Positions 5,109 through 60,963 of a stretch of 64,000 nucleotides of DNA are shown piece by piece. Position 1 is the first letter of the stretch. Each line of letters opens with the position of its first letter. Source of the DNA: Spiroplasma chinense (GTDB taxonomy: Bacteria; Bacillota_I; Bacilli_A; Mycoplasmatales; Mycoplasmataceae); contig NZ_CP043026.1 of the NCBI RefSeq assembly GCF_008086545.1, positions 1,178,001 through 1,242,000 of the forward strand, in the 5' to 3' direction. The notes beneath the pieces are model-generated. The model was not told the DNA's origin, did not search any database, and worked only from the letters and a program-made list of their open reading frames with translations. Position numbers and translations under genes: made by a program.

Positions 5109-5184
5109 TGGCAGGGGTAGCAGGACTTGAACCCACGACACTCGGATTTGAAGTCCGATGTTCTACCAACTGAACTATACCCCT
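5109..5184 (-). tRNA. trnW: tRNA-Trp (anticodon UCA, reads UGA)
   Basis: The same 76-base structure as the neighbouring tRNA-Trp, with anticodon TCA in the loop CTTCAAA. It decodes UGA as tryptophan and proves the mollicute genetic code (table 4) for this genome, in agreement with the many in-frame TGA codons. The pair plainly arose by duplication and one anticodon change. Confidence 0.96.
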
Positions 5185-22070: not shown

Positions 22071-22322
22071 TTACATTTTTTCGTGGAATGTTCTTGAGAT
22101 AACTTCGTCTTGTTGTGATTTTGTCAATTTAACAAAGTTAACAGCATATCCTGAAACTCTAATTGTTAATTGTGGATAGTTGTCTGGGTTTTTTTGAGCA
22201 TCTAATAAAACTTCACGTTTTAAAACGTTAACGTTTAAGTGGTGCCCTCCGTGTCCCATATATCCGTCTAACATGTTAACTAGGTTTTCTTTTTGTTGTT
22301 TTGAAACTTTTTGATTTTCCAT
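22071..22322 (-). CDS. Separate glycyl-radical domain of pyruvate formate-lyase (GrcA-like)
   Basis: 83 residues homologous to the C-terminus of PFL and to GrcA/Yfi[18 protein letters not shown], then [12 protein letters not shown] with radical Gly58, then the usual end ISRTFHEKM. It has its own ribosome-binding site (AAAGGA) and begins 50 bases after the stop of the large PFL gene, which lacks this region. The second ATG is preferred because the first is too close to the Shine-Dalgarno. In contrast to Escherichia coli GrcA, a spare for damaged full-length PFL, this product looks obligatory, because no intact PFL C-terminus exists here. Confidence 0.88.
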
Positions 22323-22372
22323 AATTTTCATTCCTTTCGTGTAACTATTTTTATAGTTTAATTATACTACAA

Positions 22373-24445
22373 TTATTTGATTTTTGCATCTTCTGGGATT
22401 TCTCCTGAAACTGAGAAGTCACCTTGGATTACCATATCATCATCTTTTCCAAGTGCGTTTGGAATAACTGAGAATGTGTTTGAAATTCCATCAGCTGCAT
22501 GTTTGAATGGTAATTTTGAAACTGATGCCATTGAAGCAACAGCTCCTGAACAGTCACGTCCATGCATTGGGTTAGCTCCTGGAGCAAATGCTTCAGGGTA
22601 TCTTCTTCCACATGGAGTATCTCCTGTTGATTTTCCATATACTACGTTTGAAGTAATTGTTAATACTGATAATGTTGCGTGTGAATCTCTGTAAGTTTTG
22701 TGTGATCTTACTTTATCCATAAATACTTTAACAACTTCTTTTGCTAAACTATCTACTCTATCATCATCATTACCATATTTAGGGAAGTCTCCCTCAGTTC
22801 TATAAGAAACTACAACTCCGTTTTCATCTCTTACAGGGAATACTTTTGCGTATTTAATAGCTGAAAGTGAGTCAGCAACAACTGATAATCCTGCGATTCC
22901 AGTTGCAAAGAATCTGTACACGTTAGTGTCATAGAAACACATTTCTGCACTTTCATAGTAATATTTATCGTGCATGTAGTGAATTACATTTAAAGTATTT
23001 ACATATTTATCTGCAACTCAGCTCATCATGTTGTCGAATTTTGCTCAAACTTCATCAAAGTTCATAGCATCATCTCCTGTTTGAATTGGTTCAAATCTTG
23101 GAGATACTTGTTCTTTAGAAATTTCATCAATACCACCGTTAATAGCGTATAGTAATGTTTTTGCAAGGTTTGTTCTTGCTCCAAAGAATTGCATTTGTTT
23201 ACCAACTTGCATTGGTGATACACAACAAGCAATAGCGTAATCATCACCGTGTGTTACACGCATAATGTCGTCGTTTTCATATTGCATTGAAGAATATAGA
23301 ATTGAGTAGTTAGCACAGAATTCTTTAAATCCTTCTGGTAAGCTTTGAGATCAAAGAATTGTTAAGTTAGGTTCTGGTGATGGACCCATATTTGATAATG
23401 TATGGATATATCTAAAACTGTTTTTTGTAACTAAAGTTCTACCATCAATTCCCATTCCCCCGATTGATTCTGTAGCTCAAACTGGATCTCCTGAGAAAAT
23501 TTCGTTGTATGCAGGAGTTCTTGCGAATTTAACCATTCTTAATTTCATAACTAAGTGGTCAACTAATTCTTGAGCTTCCTCTTCTGTAAGAGTTCCGTTG
23601 TTTAGATCTCTTTCAACGTAAATATCCAAGAATGTTGCAGTTCTACCAAATGATTCTGCAGCACCATTGTTTTGTTTAATAGCTGCTAAGTAAGCTAAGT
23701 ATGTGAAGTTAAATGCTTCAACTGCATTTGCTGCAGGTTGACTTACGTCAAATCCATAACTTGCAGCCATTTTTGTAATGTCTTTTAAAGCTAGGATTTG
23801 TTCTGTAATTTCTTCACGTAATCTAATTTTTTCTTCAGTCATTTCTCCATCAATTAATGAAGCATCGTGAATTTTTTGTTCAATTAAGAAGTTACTTCCG
23901 TATAATGCTAAACGTCTGTAATCTCCAATAATTCTTCCTCTACCATAAGCATCTGGTAAACCAGTAACGATATGACTTTTTCTAATTTTTCTCATATCTG
24001 GTGTATAAGCATCAAATACTCCTTGGTTGTGAGTTTTTCTGTATTTTGTAAAGATTTCTTTTACTCTATCAGAAACTGTAAATCCATAAGATTCGTTAGC
24101 TTGAACAGCCATGTTGATTCCACCTCATGGCATTAGAGCTCTTTTAAATGGTTGGTCAGTTTGTACACCAACTACTTTTTCCAAGTTTTTATCTAAATAA
24201 CCTGGTGCATGAGAAGTAATAGTTGAAGGAACATCAGTGTCCACATCAAGAACACCTCCTGCATCTCTTTCTTTTTTGGTTAAAGCCATAACCATGTCTC
24301 ATAGTTTTGTTGTATTTTCAGTTGGGCCTTTTAAGAATGAATCATCCCCAGTATAAGGTGTATAGTTTTGTTGGATAAATCCTCTAACATCAACCTCATC
24401 GGTTCATTGCCCTGATTCAAATCCGTCTCATTGTTTAAATCGCAT
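22373..24445 (-). CDS. pflB: Pyruvate formate-lyase, main subunit without radical domain, 690 aa
   Basis: It cleaves pyruvate plus CoA to acetyl-CoA plus formate. The active-site pair Cys407-Cys408 is in [25 protein letters not shown]-like sequence near residue 105 and [20 protein letters not shown] near residue 640 are PFL-typical. The chain stops at residue 690, after [12 protein letters not shown] plus about 20 extra residues. Full-length enzymes continue about 60 residues to the radical glycine. A clean TAA, a 50-base gap and a ribosome-binding site then lead to the separate radical-domain gene, so this is a split enzyme rather than a frameshift. Start ATG at 24443-24445. Confidence 0.92.
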
Positions 24446-27495: not shown

Positions 27496-27534
27496 AAAAA
27501 AAACGACTTTGAATTAGTTCAAAGTCGTTTTTTA
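27496..27534. terminator. Terminator at end of the cobalamin operon
   Basis: AAAACGACTTTGAA-TTAG-TTCAAAGTCGTTTT, a long near-perfect stem with T6 on both strands. It closes the operon that starts at the riboswitch near 32.8 kb. Confidence 0.92.
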
Positions 27535-28062
27535 ATATTCAATTCCTTTTCGTGCAGTTACACCTTTTTCATAGTAATGTTTAATTTCTTTAACTTCACT
27601 TATAAGATCTGCAATTTCACTCATTTGTTCATAAATAACTCTACCTGAAACTGCAATTTCAATATTGCTTTTTCTGTTATTTATTATTTTTACAACATGT
27701 TCTTTATCAAAGAAACCATTTTCAATTACTCCAAGTAACTCATCTACTAAAATTAAATCTACAGATTCATCTTGAAGTAATTGCTCTAATCTTTCGAGAC
27801 CCTTTAATGATTCAACCTTAAATTCTTCCACCTCTTGAGGATTCATATCCCAGATAAATTTTTTAGAAAAGTGATAGAAGTTTTCCACCTCTACCCCAAT
27901 TTTGCTTAACATATCATTTTCAGAGGTTTTCATATTTTTTAAGAATCTTAAATATTTCACATTCATATTAGAACCCTTCGCTCTTAAACACATCCCATTT
28001 AAGACTGAAGTTTTACCTTTTCCATTCCCATAATAAATGTGAAAGCACCCTTTCTTATTCAT
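27532..28062 (-). CDS. cobO: Cob(I)alamin adenosyltransferase (CobO/BtuR family)
   Basis: 176 residues. The P-loop GNGKGKTS (12-19), the LVDELLGVIENG stretch (compare the LDE-x3-x2-G motif) and the terminal pattern VKEIKHYYEKGVTARKGIEY (compare KH-Y-.-G..A..GIE-Y/F) are all typical of the CobO type. It transfers the adenosyl group of ATP to reduced cobalamin, giving adenosylcobalamin. The start ATG 28060-28062 overlaps the preceding stop as TAATG; an ATG nine bases upstream is too near its Shine-Dalgarno. It is the last gene of the riboswitch operon. The likely user of its product is the class II ribonucleotide reductase at 58-61 kb. Confidence 0.92.
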   Translation of the reverse strand: MNKKGCFHIYYGNGKGKTSVLNGMCLRAKGSNMNVKYLRFLKNMKTSENDMLSKIGVEVENFYHFSKKFIWDMNPQEVEEFKVESLKGLERLEQLLQDESVDLILVDELLGVIENGFFDKEHVVKIINNRKSNIEIAVSGRVIYEQMSEIADLISEVKEIKHYYEKGVTARKGIEY

Positions 28063-29753
28063 TACTTTCATTTCCTTTCATAGATAAAGTATGTTATAAA
28101 ATTTAATCCTAAAAATAAAGTGAAATAAGTAATAAACATAGCTTCATAAACAACAGTTACTGATTGTTTTACTAAAACTGATTGTGATAGTTCAGAAGTT
28201 TCACTTGTAAAAATAAAATTGTGAGCTTGCAATGAAGTATCTCTTCTTGCAATTGCATCTGGTAATTCTATTTTTAAATAACTATTTAAAAAGGAATTTC
28301 TTAACTCTCCACTTAGATTTCAAATATCATCATAATTTGGATTTGTGTAACTTTTTCCAGCTCATAAAATTTCAAAATGCCTGAATATATCAACTTTATT
28401 TTTTAAGTTTTTATCTCCTAAAATTTTGTCTAAATTAACAACTGCTTTTACTTGATAATTATCAAATACATAAGAACTTTTTAATAGGTTTAAAAAGTAT
28501 CAATTGAAAACAGTTTGCATTGGCGTTTTAACATTTGCAACAACTGTATCTATTGTGGCTTGATTCTCATCAACATGACCATATGCAAATATGGTTCCAG
28601 ATCTTGTTCCTGGAGAAAAACTTATAATTTCATCCAATTCGTTATAGATTTGTATTCCCTTAGCAGAATTTGAAATATATTTAAAAAGAGAGTTGAATTT
28701 ACCATCTTCAATATTTTTTGATATTAGATAGTTTGAAAAACGGCTAATATCACAAATTCCTTTTGAGTAAATGTTATCTTTTTCGCGTCTTTTACCATAA
28801 TTAAACATTAGATCCACTTTATTACAATTTTCTTGTCACTCACCTGAGTATAATGAATCATCTATGCTTTTAAAGAAAGAATAAATATCGGGTGAATTCT
28901 TTTCTAACTCAGTTGCAATATTTGGGAAATAAACATCACCAAAATAAAATTCTCTTTCATATAAATCTCAAGTATAAAGTTGAGAGTTATGTCACCTAAT
29001 ATCTAAACCATTATATTGTTCTTGAAAAAAACTATACTCGTTGTTTTTTTCAAGAAAATCATTAAAATCAAAACCCAGTTTTGTTCTGATGTTTGCTGCA
29101 ACAAACTTTAGTTCATCTCTATATTTCATTACATTGTCATAAGAACTTGTATAACCTTTTGAATAAAACATTGGAGTTAAAACTAAAATGAACGGTATAA
29201 AAATTGAAACAAACATTGCAGCTATATAATGAATTGTTAAAATACTAATCATAGTAATTGTAAAAAACAAAACATCTACAAGATAATAAAATCCAAAAAC
29301 ACTTATAAATTTTGTGTTTACAAGTTCTTTAGGAGTGTTATCCATAATTGAAGAGATTGTAAAAAAAATTAAAAAACTTATTAATATTGTTGTAACTGTG
29401 ATAATTTTTGAAAGACCCATTCTCAAGAAAAACATATAACTTGTTTTTACACCTAGTCTTTTTTCGACATTATGAACTCCATCATCATATTGTTTTTTTC
29501 AAAATAAACTTATAACAAATAAATTTAAAAGCGCTAAAAATAATATGTCTAATGTAGTTTTAATATAAAAAGTCATTTTTACATTAAGGTTACCACTAAT
29601 GATACCTTGTCTGTAATTTTGATTTATAATGACTGGAAAAACAACATTATTTAAAATCAATAAAGAAATAGTAATTAGTATTGTATAGTCAACCAAAGCC
29701 TTTTTCATATTAACTTTAAACATTATGTTTATTATTTTAAGGTTATCTTTCAT
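28062..29753 (-). CDS. Membrane protein of the cobalamin operon (ABC-2-like permease), 563 aa
   Basis: Translated through TGA=Trp codons from ATG 29751-29753, which overlaps the ATPase gene by 11 bases. About five or six hydrophobic segments fill residues 15-210 (for example ITVTTILISFLIFFTISSI). A soluble part of about 320 residues follows, then a last helix (EAMFITYFTLFLGLNFITYFIY). With the adjacent ABC-2-type ATPase it should form a transporter, but the layout is not that of BtuC or EcfT. Substrate unknown; the riboswitch suggests cobalamin or a corrinoid. The layout resembles the membrane protein at 5.2-7.0 kb. Confidence 0.65.
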
Positions 29754-30495
29754 TTTCTATCTCCACTATATTCTTTAATTTTTCAATGTCTAGTTTTTCA
29801 TTTGGTACCAACTTAGAGTAAATTTGTTGAATTGACTCTTTGTTGGGATCGTATTTTTCTTTGTAAAGGATTTTTCCTTTATCAATTAAAATTAATTTAT
29901 TTATGTTTTTTTCTAACTCTTCAATGATATGGCTTGTAACCATAATAGTTATTCCATTTTCATTCAATAGTTTTAAAATATTCATAAATTCGATTTTAGA
30001 TTTAACATCTAAATTTGCTGTTGGCTCGTCTAAAATAATCATTTTTGGTTTAATAACCAAAATTGAAATTAGAAGAGCTTTCTTTTTCATTCCTGCTGAA
30101 AGTTCTTTAAATTTTTTATCAACATGTTTTTCAAAATTAAAGAACTCACATAACTCTTTTATTTTCTTTTCATAATTTTGTAAGAAACTTAATTCACAAA
30201 TATATTTAATATACTCATTAACTGTAAAGTTAAGTGGTATATTATTTGAATCTGGAAAAAAAGCCAGATTTTTTAGATTTTGATTTTCAAAGACACTTTC
30301 TCCATAATACAAAACTTCTCCTTGATTAATTTTTAATTCATTAAAAATTAATCTGATGGTTGTGGTTTTTCCAGCTCCATTGTCACCAACAAAGCCCACA
30401 AACTCACCTTCCTTAATTTCAAAGTTTATATCATGTAAAATTTTTTTATTTCTTATATCTTTGTATAACTTTTTAATCTCTAATATATTTTTCAT
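29743..30495 (-). CDS. ABC transporter ATP-binding protein (ABC-2/CcmA type)
   Basis: 250 residues with Walker A GDNGAGKTT (37-45), signature LSAGMKKK, Walker B PKMIILDEP and the switch VTSHIIEEL. The LSAGMKKK signature and lone nucleotide-binding domain are typical of exporters of the ABC-2 class, not of EcfA. Its ATG overlaps the stop of the S-component gene (TAATG). In this operon it pairs with the membrane protein downstream. An ABC-2 pair inside a B12-regulated operon is unusual. Confidence 0.88.
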   Translation of the reverse strand: MKNILEIKKLYKDIRNKKILHDINFEIKEGEFVGFVGDNGAGKTTTIRLIFNELKINQGEVLYYGESVFENQNLKNLAFFPDSNNIPLNFTVNEYIKYICELSFLQNYEKKIKELCEFFNFEKHVDKKFKELSAGMKKKALLISILVIKPKMIILDEPTANLDVKSKIEFMNILKLLNENGITIMVTSHIIEELEKNINKLILIDKGKILYKEKYDPNKESIQQIYSKLVPNEKLDIEKLKNIVEIENER

Positions 30496-31013
30496 TATAA
30501 GTACCTTGCCAAGTCATTTCTATATACATTGTAAATGGGTTTGTATAAAAAGTATGCTACTAAGAAATTTGAACATCCGTGAATTACATCAAAAATTAAT
30601 CCTTTAATTCAGTATGCGTAAAAAACACTTCAGTCAAAAAAAATTAAATTGACTGTGGCGTCAAGTGTTCCAAACATAAAACCAAACAAAGTATTAATTA
30701 AAACAAAGGTAAATCAATTTAGTGTTTTAGTTTTTCGTAGAATAAAAATCATTGTAATTAGGGTTGGTCATAAAATTAAGTAAGTAATATACCAAGTACC
30801 AAAACCTCACATTAATACATCTAATGTACAAAATACAATAGTAATTAGAAGTGCTTTTCAATAATTAAAAATTATGACAGAAAAAGATAATAGTAGAGTT
30901 GTAACTTCAACATTAGGAATGAAAGCTATCATAGTTTTTGTTGCAAAAACCATTGAGGCATACATTGCAACTAAAGCTATTGAATATGCATGAGAAAAAT
31001 TCTTACTCTTCAT
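30495..31013 (-). CDS. ECF transporter S component, probably for cobalamin
   Basis: 172 residues with about six membrane helices. Near the N-terminus ALVAMYASMVFATKTMI-F-PNVE resembles the conserved helix 1 of ECF S components, where small residues contact EcfT. VFCTLDVLMWGFGTWYITYL fits the CbrT/CblT-like group often found under cobalamin riboswitches. It binds the vitamin and needs a shared EcfA-EcfA'-EcfT module, which must be elsewhere in the genome. The start overlaps the preceding gene by 11 bases. Cobalamin specificity is inferred from the riboswitch and cobO. Confidence 0.75.
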
Positions 31014-31458
31014 CTATACTAGTCCCGTAAACCTCATATTTAAAAACAAACGAATTTGTCATTCCTAAATACATTGTCCCTGCACCTTCTCCACAAAAAT
31101 GACCTACTGCGTTTTTGCATGCGGAGTGCGTTTCAGAATAAATGAATCATGCTCTAGCACCCGGACCATCTTCTTGCTCTAATCCTTTTATTGCAATTAT
31201 CATCGTAAACTTAAATTTCACTTCTTCATCTTTCTTTAAGACTTCGTATAAGTTAAGACCAGCTACATCATTCACTTCTTTGTCTAGAATCAAATTATTT
31301 TCTGAATCATAGGCTTGATAATGCAAAGTACTTCCTACTGCACTTTCTCTTATTTGTCCTTTAAGTGAATAAAATTTATACACAAACAAGGAAAATAAAA
31401 TAGCTAAAATAACATTTGAAACTATTAAAATATTAGTTATTATTTTTAGCTTTTTCAT
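31003..31458 (-). CDS. Membrane-anchored DUF4430-like (transcobalamin C-domain-like) protein
   Basis: 151 residues. A single N-terminal helix (about 8-28, NILIVSNVILAILFSLFVYKF) anchors an extracellular domain of about 120 residues. That domain follows the DUF4430 pattern: AGLNLYEVLKK, AIKGLEQEDGPGARAWFIY, CKNAVGHFCGEGAG, then FVFKYEVYG. The same fold forms the C-terminal domain of transcobalamin and intrinsic factor and is frequent beside ECF cobalamin S components. It may capture B12 at the cell surface. The start follows AGGAGGAAAT. The assignment is by pattern only. Confidence 0.65.
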
Positions 31459-31466
31459 ATTTCCTC

Positions 31467-32581: not shown

Positions 32582-32607
32582 AAATAAAAAGCACGATCTA
32601 AATCGTG
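32582..32607 (-). terminator. Riboswitch expression-platform terminator
   Basis: CACGAT-TTAG-ATCGTG followed by CTTTTTATTT on the minus strand, 30 bases before the first gene of the operon. TAGCCA (32606-32611) overlaps its 5' arm by two bases and can pair with TGGCTA at 32651-32656, closing an alternative long AT-rich hairpin (32606-32656). This suggests terminator/antiterminator control. Confidence 0.75.
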
Positions 32608-32677
32608 GCTAATTAATATTTATTTCCTTATGAATAAATATTATCCTCCATAGCCAGTGAAAGATTAATAATTATCT

Positions 32678-32821
32678 AGTAAAATAGGTATCCTGACTTA
32701 GTTTCTTCTCTCTTGTCACCTTCTCAAACTTAAATTTAGTTCAATGGTATCAAGACAAGAGATCCGCTTTACAGTTGCTGGTACAGTTTTGGCTTTTCAC
32801 CAAATTCCCTTACATTCTACT
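32678..32821 (-). promoter_or_regulatory. Cobalamin riboswitch
   Basis: The minus strand contains the cobalamin aptamer core in the right order: AAGGGAATTTGGTGAAAAGCC, CCAGCAACTGTAAAGCGG (the B12 box region, one base from the usual CCCGCAACTGT) and AAGTCAGGATACC at the 3' side. Outer helix P1 can form between AGTAGAA (32815-32821) and TTTTACT (32678-32684). Cobalamin binding normally shuts such operons down. It lies 126 bases upstream of the lipoprotein gene, with a terminator between. Confidence 0.95.
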
Positions 32822-32878
32822 TGCTTTTTAGTTCTATATTTATTTTAGCAAAGTAATGTGAAATAAATTTTTTTAATA

Positions 32879-58370: not shown

Positions 58371-60869
58371 TTATAGCCCACATTTTAATTGTGCCCCACA
58401 GTTTGCACAAGTAACACATCCAGCTGAATCTATTAAAGTTCCAATTGTACACATTGGACATAAGTCTCCGACATCATTTCCAATTTTTTGTTCTTGTGTA
58501 ATTTTTTTAGGTACGTCAGTTTCTTGAATTGGTGTCAACTCTTGTTCTTCTTTTAATAAGTGTTCGTCATCTGTGTCAAGTGATAAAACTTGTGTATCAC
58601 GACTTCCGTCAACATAAACTGTTCCACCTTTTGCTCCGCCTTTGTAAAGTCTTGTATAAATTTTTTCAACTTGTTCAACTTTATATCCTTTAGGTGCATT
58701 AACAGTTTTTGATATTGATGAGTCAACTCATCTTTGAATGATACATTGAACATCTGCATGAGCTTCTGGTGCAAGTTCCATTGCACTTACAAAGTAATCA
58801 GGTAAAGGTTTGTCTGTATATTCTGGGTTATATTTTAATCATTCTTGAACAATTTTAGCTTTAACTTCCATGAACTTTCCAAGTCTTCCACTTCTAAAGT
58901 ATGAGAAAGCAAAGTAAGGTTCAAGTCCTGTTGAACATCCAACCATTGTTCCAGTTGAACCTGTTGGTGCAACTGTAATTAGGTGAGAGTTTCTAATTCC
59001 TTCATCAAGAATTCCTTGTCTAATGTCTTCTGGCATTTTTTTCAAGAATCCTGATTCAATAAATTTTTCTCTATCTTCTAAGAATGGGAATGATCCTTTT
59101 TCTTTTCCAAGTTTAATTGATGTTCTATAAGCTGTTGTTGTTATAGTTTCAAAGATTTTGTCAACAATTTTGTTTCCTTCTTCTGATCCATATTTTACTC
59201 CAGCTCAGATTAATAAATCGTGTAATCCCATTACACCAAGTCCAACTCTTCTTTCACCAAGTGCTTGTTGTTTGTTTGGTTCCAAGAAGTATGGAGTTGA
59301 GTCAATTACGTTGTCTTGCATTCTCACACAAACAGAAACTGTTTTTGCAAGTTTATCGTAAAGAACTTCTTTAGTTTCTTTATCAACAAAGTTTGCTAAG
59401 TTAACTGCTGCTAAGTTACATACTGAGTAAGGTGCTAAAGGTTGTTCACCACAAGGATTTGTAGCAACAACTTTTTGACCATATCCTTTTGCATTTGTCA
59501 TATCATTTGCAGTATCTAAGAAGAAAATTCCAGGTTCTGCAGAATAAGTTGCACAGAAGTTAATCAAATCTCATAAGTCTTTTGCTCTAATTGATTGATA
59601 AACTTTTGATGGATATCTTCTTTTTTCTCATTCGAATACATCCCCTATGTCAGCTCATTTAGTGTCATAGAAATATTTTTGTTCTTTTGTTAAATTTTCT
59701 AGATCTGGATATTTTAATTCTCAGTCTAAATCTTTTTCAACTGCTTCCATAAATTTGTGAGAAATTGTAACAGAGATATTTGCACCAGTCATAAATTCTG
59801 GGTTAGCAACAACTCATTTTCCTCCCACTTTCAATTTTTCTGCAGCTTCTTTTATAAGTGAAGCGTCAACATTTGTTGGATTTGCAATTACATTTTCATA
59901 TAATTTTCTTTCAACTTCTGTTAAATATTCAAATCTTAATTTTCTATTTGCTTCTTGACGAATTAATTCACTTGGTGAATTATTTCTTAATCATAATAAG
60001 ATGTTTGGGTTTTGCATTTTTGAAATAATAAACTCAATTACATCTGGGTGTCAATCAGCTAACATAATCATTTGAGCTCCACGTCTTGAACCACCTTGTT
60101 CTATTAAGTGAGTTAATAGAGAAAGGTCATTCAATCAAGACACAGCCCCACTTGAACGACCACCAACACTTTTTGCTGGTGCTCCTTTTGGTCTTAAAGT
60201 TGAACCATTTGTTCCAACTCCTCCACCTCTTGACATGATTTCAGTAACTTGCGCTCTATGGTGAGAGATTGCAGCTCTGTCATCTTTAATAAATGGCATT
60301 ACATAACAGTTAAAGTATGTAACTTCACTACCACTTCCTGCACCGTATAAAACTCTTCCTGCAGGTATAATATTTAATTCACCAAGTTCTCTTGCGAACT
60401 CTTTTCCGATTTCATCACGAAGTTCTTCTTTTTCAACTTGTGCTAAGTTGTTACCAACTCTTTTTGCAATTTGTTCAAAGAATAATTCTAATGGTTTTTC
60501 TAGTTCATATTTTTGTTTAATAATCAGATTTTCACTGTTTGTTTCTTTTAATAACTCTGGATCTATTGCTCCCAAATATCCTTCGTCAACTTCAATTATA
60601 TAAGTTCCGTTATCTTTAATTTCTTTTACATAACCAATTCCTCTTGATGGGAAAACTGGGTCTGCTTTAATAGTTGTGATAACTAAATCACCAACTCCTA
60701 AAGAAACAAGGTTTTTATCTTTTTGTGAATATCTATCTAGCATAACCATTCTTGAAACACCTTCAAACACCATTTTATCTGAATTTTCAATTGGATAAAG
60801 GTGTTTGAAGTATTTATGTATGTCTTCATTGATGTTCTCAATTTGCTTTTGATTGTAAAGCTCTTGCAT
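58371..60869 (-). CDS. nrdJ: Adenosylcobalamin-dependent (class II) ribonucleotide reductase
   Basis: 832 residues through many TGA=Trp codons. It reduces ribonucleotides to deoxyribonucleotides with an adenosylcobalamin-generated thiyl radical. The active-site motif NPCGEQPL has Asn471, Cys473 (thiyl) and Glu475; Cys188 (TYFNCYV) and Cys484 (SVCNL) form the redox pair. Also seen are SRGGGVGTNGSTLR, EQGGSRRGAQM, PTGSTGTMVGCSTGLEP and RWVDSSISKTVN. The C-terminal zinc ribbon CPMC...CVTCANC is typical of the NrdJ Z group. Start ATG 60867-60869 after AGGAGG. No separate small subunit is nearby, as expected. Cofactor likely from the cobalamin operon. Confidence 0.95.
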
Positions 60870-60925
60870 TATAAATTCCTCCTGTTGATATTTTTTTGAT
60901 TGCTTAAAAAGCGCCCAATAATAGA

Positions 60926-60963
60926 TATCCACTAATCATTAGCCAATGTGTAAAAGTGGATAA
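60926..60963. promoter_or_regulatory. Inverted DnaA-box-like repeat upstream of nrdJ
   Basis: TATCCACT (60926-60933) and AGTGGATAA (60955-60963) are inverted about 21 bases apart; on the minus strand TTATCCACT differs by one base from the DnaA box. It lies 57-94 bases before the nrdJ start, near a TATAAT-like sequence. It may be a replication-linked operator or just a 5'-UTR hairpin. Confidence 0.4.

Follow-up and report, generated by a model that had tools for sequence, protein, structure and literature searches.

Background

The cobalamin riboswitch of Priestia megaterium metE is of the L5-L13 kissing-loop type and acts in a repressing transcriptional form, which is OFF with ligand (PMC10653944). 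Lactobacillus delbrueckii carries the cluster nrdJ-cbrS-cbrT-pduO, and the structure 6FNP is that of the cobalamin transporter ECF-CbrT (PMC5997447). A 2009 survey of 17 mollicutes found the use of nickel and cobalt both lost in 88% of them and urease in two (PMC2667541), and a 2025 survey reported riboswitch enrichment and a transcriptional bias for Mycoplasmatota in general (PMC12452182). In the open-access literature (subscription papers are mostly outside it), we found no paper joining a cobalamin riboswitch and the Mollicutes, and searches there for Spiroplasma with cobalamin, with riboswitch, or with B12 and ribonucleotide reductase (RNR) gave nothing relevant by title and abstract.

Mollicutes are regarded as little-regulated bacteria in which cobalt use is almost nil. 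Here, one mollicute retains a full sensor for B12, an importer of the CbrT type, an adenosyltransferase and an RNR that depends on B12, and a B12-controlled network in small-genome mollicutes is apparently unreported. The DNA analysed (the window) is a stretch of 64,000 nucleotides from Spiroplasma chinense (NZ_CP043026.1, positions 1,178,001 to 1,242,000), for which an earlier note, made from the letters alone, had proposed a cobalamin riboswitch with a terminator platform.

Results and Discussion

Aptamer and leader

A cmscan search against all Rfam families, in line with the check that the earlier note had suggested, gave a significant match to RF00174 at 32834-32666 of the minus strand (75.3 bits against a gathering cut-off of 31.5; E-value of 9.7e-17 for the entire window). 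The match covers positions 1-189 of the 189 of the model and aligns through the peripheral region P7-P11. The aptamer had thus been rightly placed on this strand, with its core motifs in the order given, although it ends slightly beyond the limit first set and reaches 32834. When the 1.37 Mb genome was searched family by family and in stretches, the window copy was its sole RF00174 match. We assign the aptamer to the class-I, adenosylcobalamin (AdoCbl)-type cobalamin riboswitches, with ligand binding and selectivity as predictions, and the transcript is expected to start at about 32835. As L5, a UGAAAAG loop was considered and was dropped for UACCAG after comparison with relatives. The coordinates are collected in Table 1.

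Table 1. Leader elements, operon genes and the class II ribonucleotide reductase in the window
Feature	Position	Strand	Basis or detail
Terminator of gene upstream of leader	32902-32885	(-)	Terminator scan
Extended -10, promoter-like, TGCTAAAAT	32842..32850	(-)	Inferred from sequence; absent from consensus scan
Cobalamin riboswitch aptamer (RF00174), full length with peripheral helices	32666..32834	(-)	75.3 bits
P5/L5	32776..32785	(-)	Rfam alignment; loop UACCAG at 32783-32778
B12 box / J6-3, AGUCAGGAUACC	32687..32698	(-)	Sequence and Rfam alignment
P13 hairpin	32643..32665	(-)	Arms 32665-32658 / 32650-32643; loop L13 CUGGCUA 32657-32651
AU-rich hairpin AAUAUUUAUU/AAUAAAUAUU, extends antiterminator	32615..32642	(-)	Folds
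Antiterminator 3' arm UAGCCA, partner of UGGCUA of L13	32606..32611	(-)	Compensatory changes and permutation test
Intrinsic terminator AGC(C)ACGAU-UUAG-AUCGUGCU and U tract	32582..32610	(-)	Scan and folds
Gene 1 SD AGGAG	32565-32561	(-)	Sequence; ATG at 32552
Gene 1, lipoprotein, 361 aa	31467..32552	(-)	ORF, table 4; without functional family
Gene 2, membrane-anchored DUF4430 / transcobalamin beta-domain-like protein	31003..31461	(-)	Weak DUF4430 match and model
Gene 3, CbrT-like cobalamin ECF S-component	30495..31013	(-)	Profile and fold
Gene 4, ABC transporter ATPase	29743..30495	(-)	PF00005 5.5e-25
Gene 5, putative ABC permease partner, 563 aa	28062..29753	(-)	Adjoins ATPase in relatives
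Gene 6, CobA/BtuR corrinoid adenosyltransferase	27532..28071	(-)	PF02572 6.1e-49
NrdJ, AdoCbl-dependent class II ribonucleotide reductase	58371..60932	(-)	NF005991, TIGR02504

Both structures required for a transcriptional OFF switch, a terminator and a competing antiterminator, are present by sequence and folds. The intrinsic terminator, already named in the earlier note, is real: a scan of 1.2 kb gives three terminator-like sites, this one included, against 0.3 +/- 0.5 in shuffled sequence. The UGGCUA (32656-32651):UAGCCA (32611-32606) hairpin set against it there also exists and is part of the full-length minimum free energy (MFE) fold, and compensatory changes among relatives back its pairing as an antiterminator. 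With the minimal CACGAU/AUCGUG stem the hairpin overlaps by only 2 nt; the folded terminator, AGC(C)ACGAU/AUCGUGCU (32610-32590), raises the overlap to about 5 nt. The objection that the two stems overlap too little is ruled out by this longer form.

Switching platform

The termination platform and the competing hairpin of the earlier account stand, but the account was incomplete: P13/L13 and the L5-L13 kissing loop, the elements that would link ligand binding to the antiterminator, had been overlooked. The genes under control and the B12 user in the same window were likewise absent from it. All 8 of the 8 P13 pairs vary on both sides among 14 relatives, a covariation reached in 0 of 500 shuffles. 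Kissing-loop complementarity in the window (CCAG:CUGG) is seen in the sequence, and across the order L5 and L13 covary. Where L5 is UACCAG, L13 has CUGG and then C, U or A; where it is UCCCAG, L13 has CUGGG; and where it is UCCUAG, L13 has CUAGG. G305 is the single exception. L13 also matches the 5' arm of the terminator. The mean duplex energy is -6.0 kcal/mol; permuted pairs average -4.34 +/- 0.28, and none of 20000 permutations was as good. The leaders were taken as independent after removal of near-duplicates, so that relatedness may inflate the result. In this pairing 94% of cells are paired, two pairs show compensatory changes, and the substitutions run from UGGCUA/UAGCCA to UGGUCA/UGACCA and UGGUUA/UAAUCA; to judge from these sequences, the complementarity follows lineages. 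The platform model does not extend to the whole order, since most copies of genus g8 (1.1-2.2 Mb) show a weak match between L13 and the arm or none.

Our main reading, to which we give a probability of roughly 80%, is that the riboswitch turns the B12 uptake and adenosylation operon off when B12 suffices. Without AdoCbl, UGGCUA of L13 would pair with UAGCCA and occupy the AGC-CA portion of the terminator 5' arm; the polymerase would then read through into the operon, with synthesis of CbrT, of the transcobalamin-like capture protein and of CobA (ON). With AdoCbl bound, CCAG of L5 would kiss CUGG of L13 and keep L13 in P13, by which UAGCCA would be freed, the terminator would form and transcription would stop (OFF). 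The imported B12 would be adenosylated by CobA and used by NrdJ in dNTP synthesis. Since L13 is complementary to both L5 and the terminator arm, this one loop can be held by either, with ligand by L5 (OFF) or without it by the arm (ON). The P. megaterium metE riboswitch shares the RF00174 family, the kissing loop and the OFF response to ligand proposed here. It differs in that here the L13 loop itself, not only the 3' side of P13, complements the terminator 5' arm, and in that the present host is a mollicute with TGA as Trp and its L5 is UACCAG, whereas the consensus is UCCCG. On the evidence of the sequence, L13 itself would be the strand that toggles, a small variation on the known mechanism.

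The same riboswitch and operon could also work through a platform that acts via the 3' side of P13 or the P1 strand, with the UGGCUA:UAGCCA pairing as a secondary matter. The tested P. megaterium antiterminator does use the P13 3' side (PMC10653944), and when the platform is folded alone, P13 with the terminator is 3.7 kcal/mol more stable than the antiterminator. The full-length MFE fold contains the antiterminator, so that the two calculations disagree and the energy balance is uncertain; the hairpin energies themselves (antiterminator, -11.0; P13 and terminator, -4.7 and -6.0) are near balance. In the window, however, we saw nothing in the P13 3' arm that complements the 5' arm of the terminator; L13, by contrast, matches the latter and covaries with it, and we regard this variant of the platform as unlikely.

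Much less probable still is control at the start of translation instead of at termination. The P13 3' arm does contain GGAGG (32649-32645), but a terminator with a U tract lies between it and gene 1, whose own Shine-Dalgarno sequence is outside the hairpins, and translational control through this GGAGG was rejected for want of a start codon downstream at a fitting distance. We attach an equally slight chance to a riboswitch in decay that has lost its response; a decay series before nrdF in NrdJ-less species of the genus and a broken copy of the operon in G195 give some ground for it, but the aptamer of the window scores 75 bits, the operon genes are intact, and both NrdJ and CobA are present.

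Uptake operon and NrdJ

The six genes behind the leader are separated by gaps of at most 5 nt and followed by an inverted repeat with a T run. The genome reads TGA as Trp: the open reading frames of the window are whole only under table 4, and the host is, as the earlier note held, a mollicute. Gene 1 has a weak match to the LP_plasma signal domain, under the cut-off, and remote homologs behind the riboswitches of relatives. Gene 2 scores 15.9 bits against PF14478 (DUF4430), below the Pfam cut-off of 23.8, and is therefore called "like" and not a member; 4 of its 16 relatives match PF14478 at E-values up to 0.1, the best being 2.2e-6. Its AlphaFold model (pLDDT 87.5) matches 3u7z, a bacterial protein of 97 residues, as well as haptocorrin and intrinsic factor (E-values of 4.5e-4 to 8.7e-4), with transcobalamin next. 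From the model, gene 2 is a putative transcobalamin-like B12 capture protein. It shares the predicted fold of the transcobalamin and intrinsic factor beta domain (DUF4430, PF14478), whose animal relatives bind B12, but is only about 10-17% identical to these proteins and is membrane-anchored.

Gene 3 is without a Pfam match. A search with the profile of its family gives 6fnp_A (ECF-CbrT) with an E-value of 1.5e-15, and the top PDB folds for its model are S-components (biotin, riboflavin and thiamin) with TM of about 0.6, a probability of about 1 and E-values of at least 0.05. In G154 and G014, the CbrT-like proteins continue into a longer C-terminal part (L038:1668-2849 and L084:2155-3267), which in G154 resembles DUF4430-like proteins by eye; this may be a fused capture-plus-transport protein. 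Genes 4 and 5 encode an ABC ATPase and a putative permease, gene 5 being without a family match in profile searches. Gene 6 reaches 167 bits against PF02572 (cut-off, 25.7) and matches 4hut/1g5r with E < 1e-20; its score is under the stricter TIGR00708 equivalog cut-off. As a set, the genes resemble an operon for the uptake of B12.

The likely user of the imported B12 is NrdJ, which lies 26 kb from the operon and outside it, within the same window. It scores 1290 bits against NF005991 (cut-off, 854) and 543-565 bits against TIGR02504 (cut-off, 400), and its closest named relatives are two Spiroplasma records with 67 and 65% identity. Among other candidate users, ethanolamine lyase, methylmalonyl-CoA mutase and QueG were not found in the genome by searches in which the positive controls were detected; the genome search for diol dehydratase gave no match, as did its control, and that for B12-binding domains gave only sub-threshold scores (19.3 bits). 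As in the L. delbrueckii cluster, a CbrT S-component and a corrinoid adenosyltransferase would serve NrdJ. The adenosyltransferase is of the CobA type here and of the PduO type there, and the present operon has in addition the transcobalamin-like protein, the lipoprotein and the ABC pair. In L. delbrueckii nrdJ is in the cluster, in contrast to the distant NrdJ of the window, although NrdJ adjoins the riboswitch operon in G154, G156, G164, G177 and G182.

Distribution in the order and decaying copies

The earlier note knew of no B12 riboswitch in this lineage, which may hold for the literature but not at the sequence level: 43 of the 320 genomes of the order (12 of 50 genera) have RF00174 matches, 35 of them above the cut-off, and several carry two to four copies. 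The genes downstream of the 62 copies inspected include CbrT-like and DUF4430-like genes, nrdFIE, and nrdD followed by a short gene (L051, L060). In genus g8, the copies precede a set of purine nucleoside phosphorylase, putative deoxynucleoside kinase, transketolase and nucleoside deoxyribosyltransferase, the kinase being assigned by eye on weak kinase matches. RF00174 co-occurs with CobA (odds ratio of 149, p 2.7e-32), NrdJ (41) and CbrT (46) in tests that ignore phylogeny, and CobA is present in 35 of the 36 NrdJ genomes. Since there are exceptions both ways, 10 genomes with NrdJ and no riboswitch and 17 with a riboswitch and no full NrdJ, the link between the two is strong but not absolute.

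We are evenly divided on a wider proposal, an order-wide dNTP regulon in which B12 would shut its own uptake together with every route to dNTPs that needs no B12 (class Ib nrdFIE, class III nrdD and deoxynucleoside salvage) and so favour NrdJ; in many members, L13 would toggle between L5 and the terminator, and loss of NrdJ would lead to decay of the switch and leave fossils. This broader regulon would be more interesting than the riboswitch alone, which is of a known kind.

In genomes of the same genus without NrdJ, which also lack CobA, the leaders of nrdF are decayed (L034-L037, L209, L214, L206, L213 and L215). Six of them (G183, G184, G188-190 and G192) keep L5, P13/L13, the antiterminator and the terminator with a damaged core that scores 22-27 bits where detected, and in G179, G191 and G193 only traces of P13 and the terminator are left. 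On this sequence evidence, the series shows what would be decayed B12 riboswitches before nrdF; the other reading is that the shrunken aptamers now sense something else. In the broken operon of G195 (L033:301-5300), the lipoprotein, permease and CobA genes are each split in two frames, the ATPase is shortened and the riboswitch ahead is truncated. The order offers a natural series from a full B12 regulon to a riboswitch fossil, on which it can be tested directly how the supply of B12, the RNR class chosen and the loss of a riboswitch are connected.

No riboswitch was found for the host's own class Ib nrdFIE. In G153, a 2'-dG-I riboswitch (RF01510, 75.5 bits; L219:1133-1196) stands before nrdF. 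It resembles the present system as a riboswitch ahead of nrdF and differs in ligand and family, and it was not found in the nrdF leader of the host genome; as judged by sequence, RNR genes of this family fall under different riboswitches.

Other observations in the window

The pyruvate formate-lyase of the window is split. Its core of 690 aa (22373-24445, minus strand) stops short of the glycyl-radical site, RVSGYAVNF, which is found instead in a second frame of roughly 96 aa (about 22131-22331, minus strand). Among relatives (L220-L239), the Gly_radical match is also in two parts; it lies in a separate short frame (83-97 aa) in G180, G181, G182, G186 and G187, and in a long frame in G178, G185, G194 and G196. 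Possibly, this radical enzyme is naturally in two pieces, one of them GrcA/YfiD-like. Finally, the tRNA at 5109-5184 (minus strand), which ARAGORN calls SeC, has nearly the same sequence as the adjoining tRNA-Trp, and its anticodon TCA is consistent with TGA as Trp.
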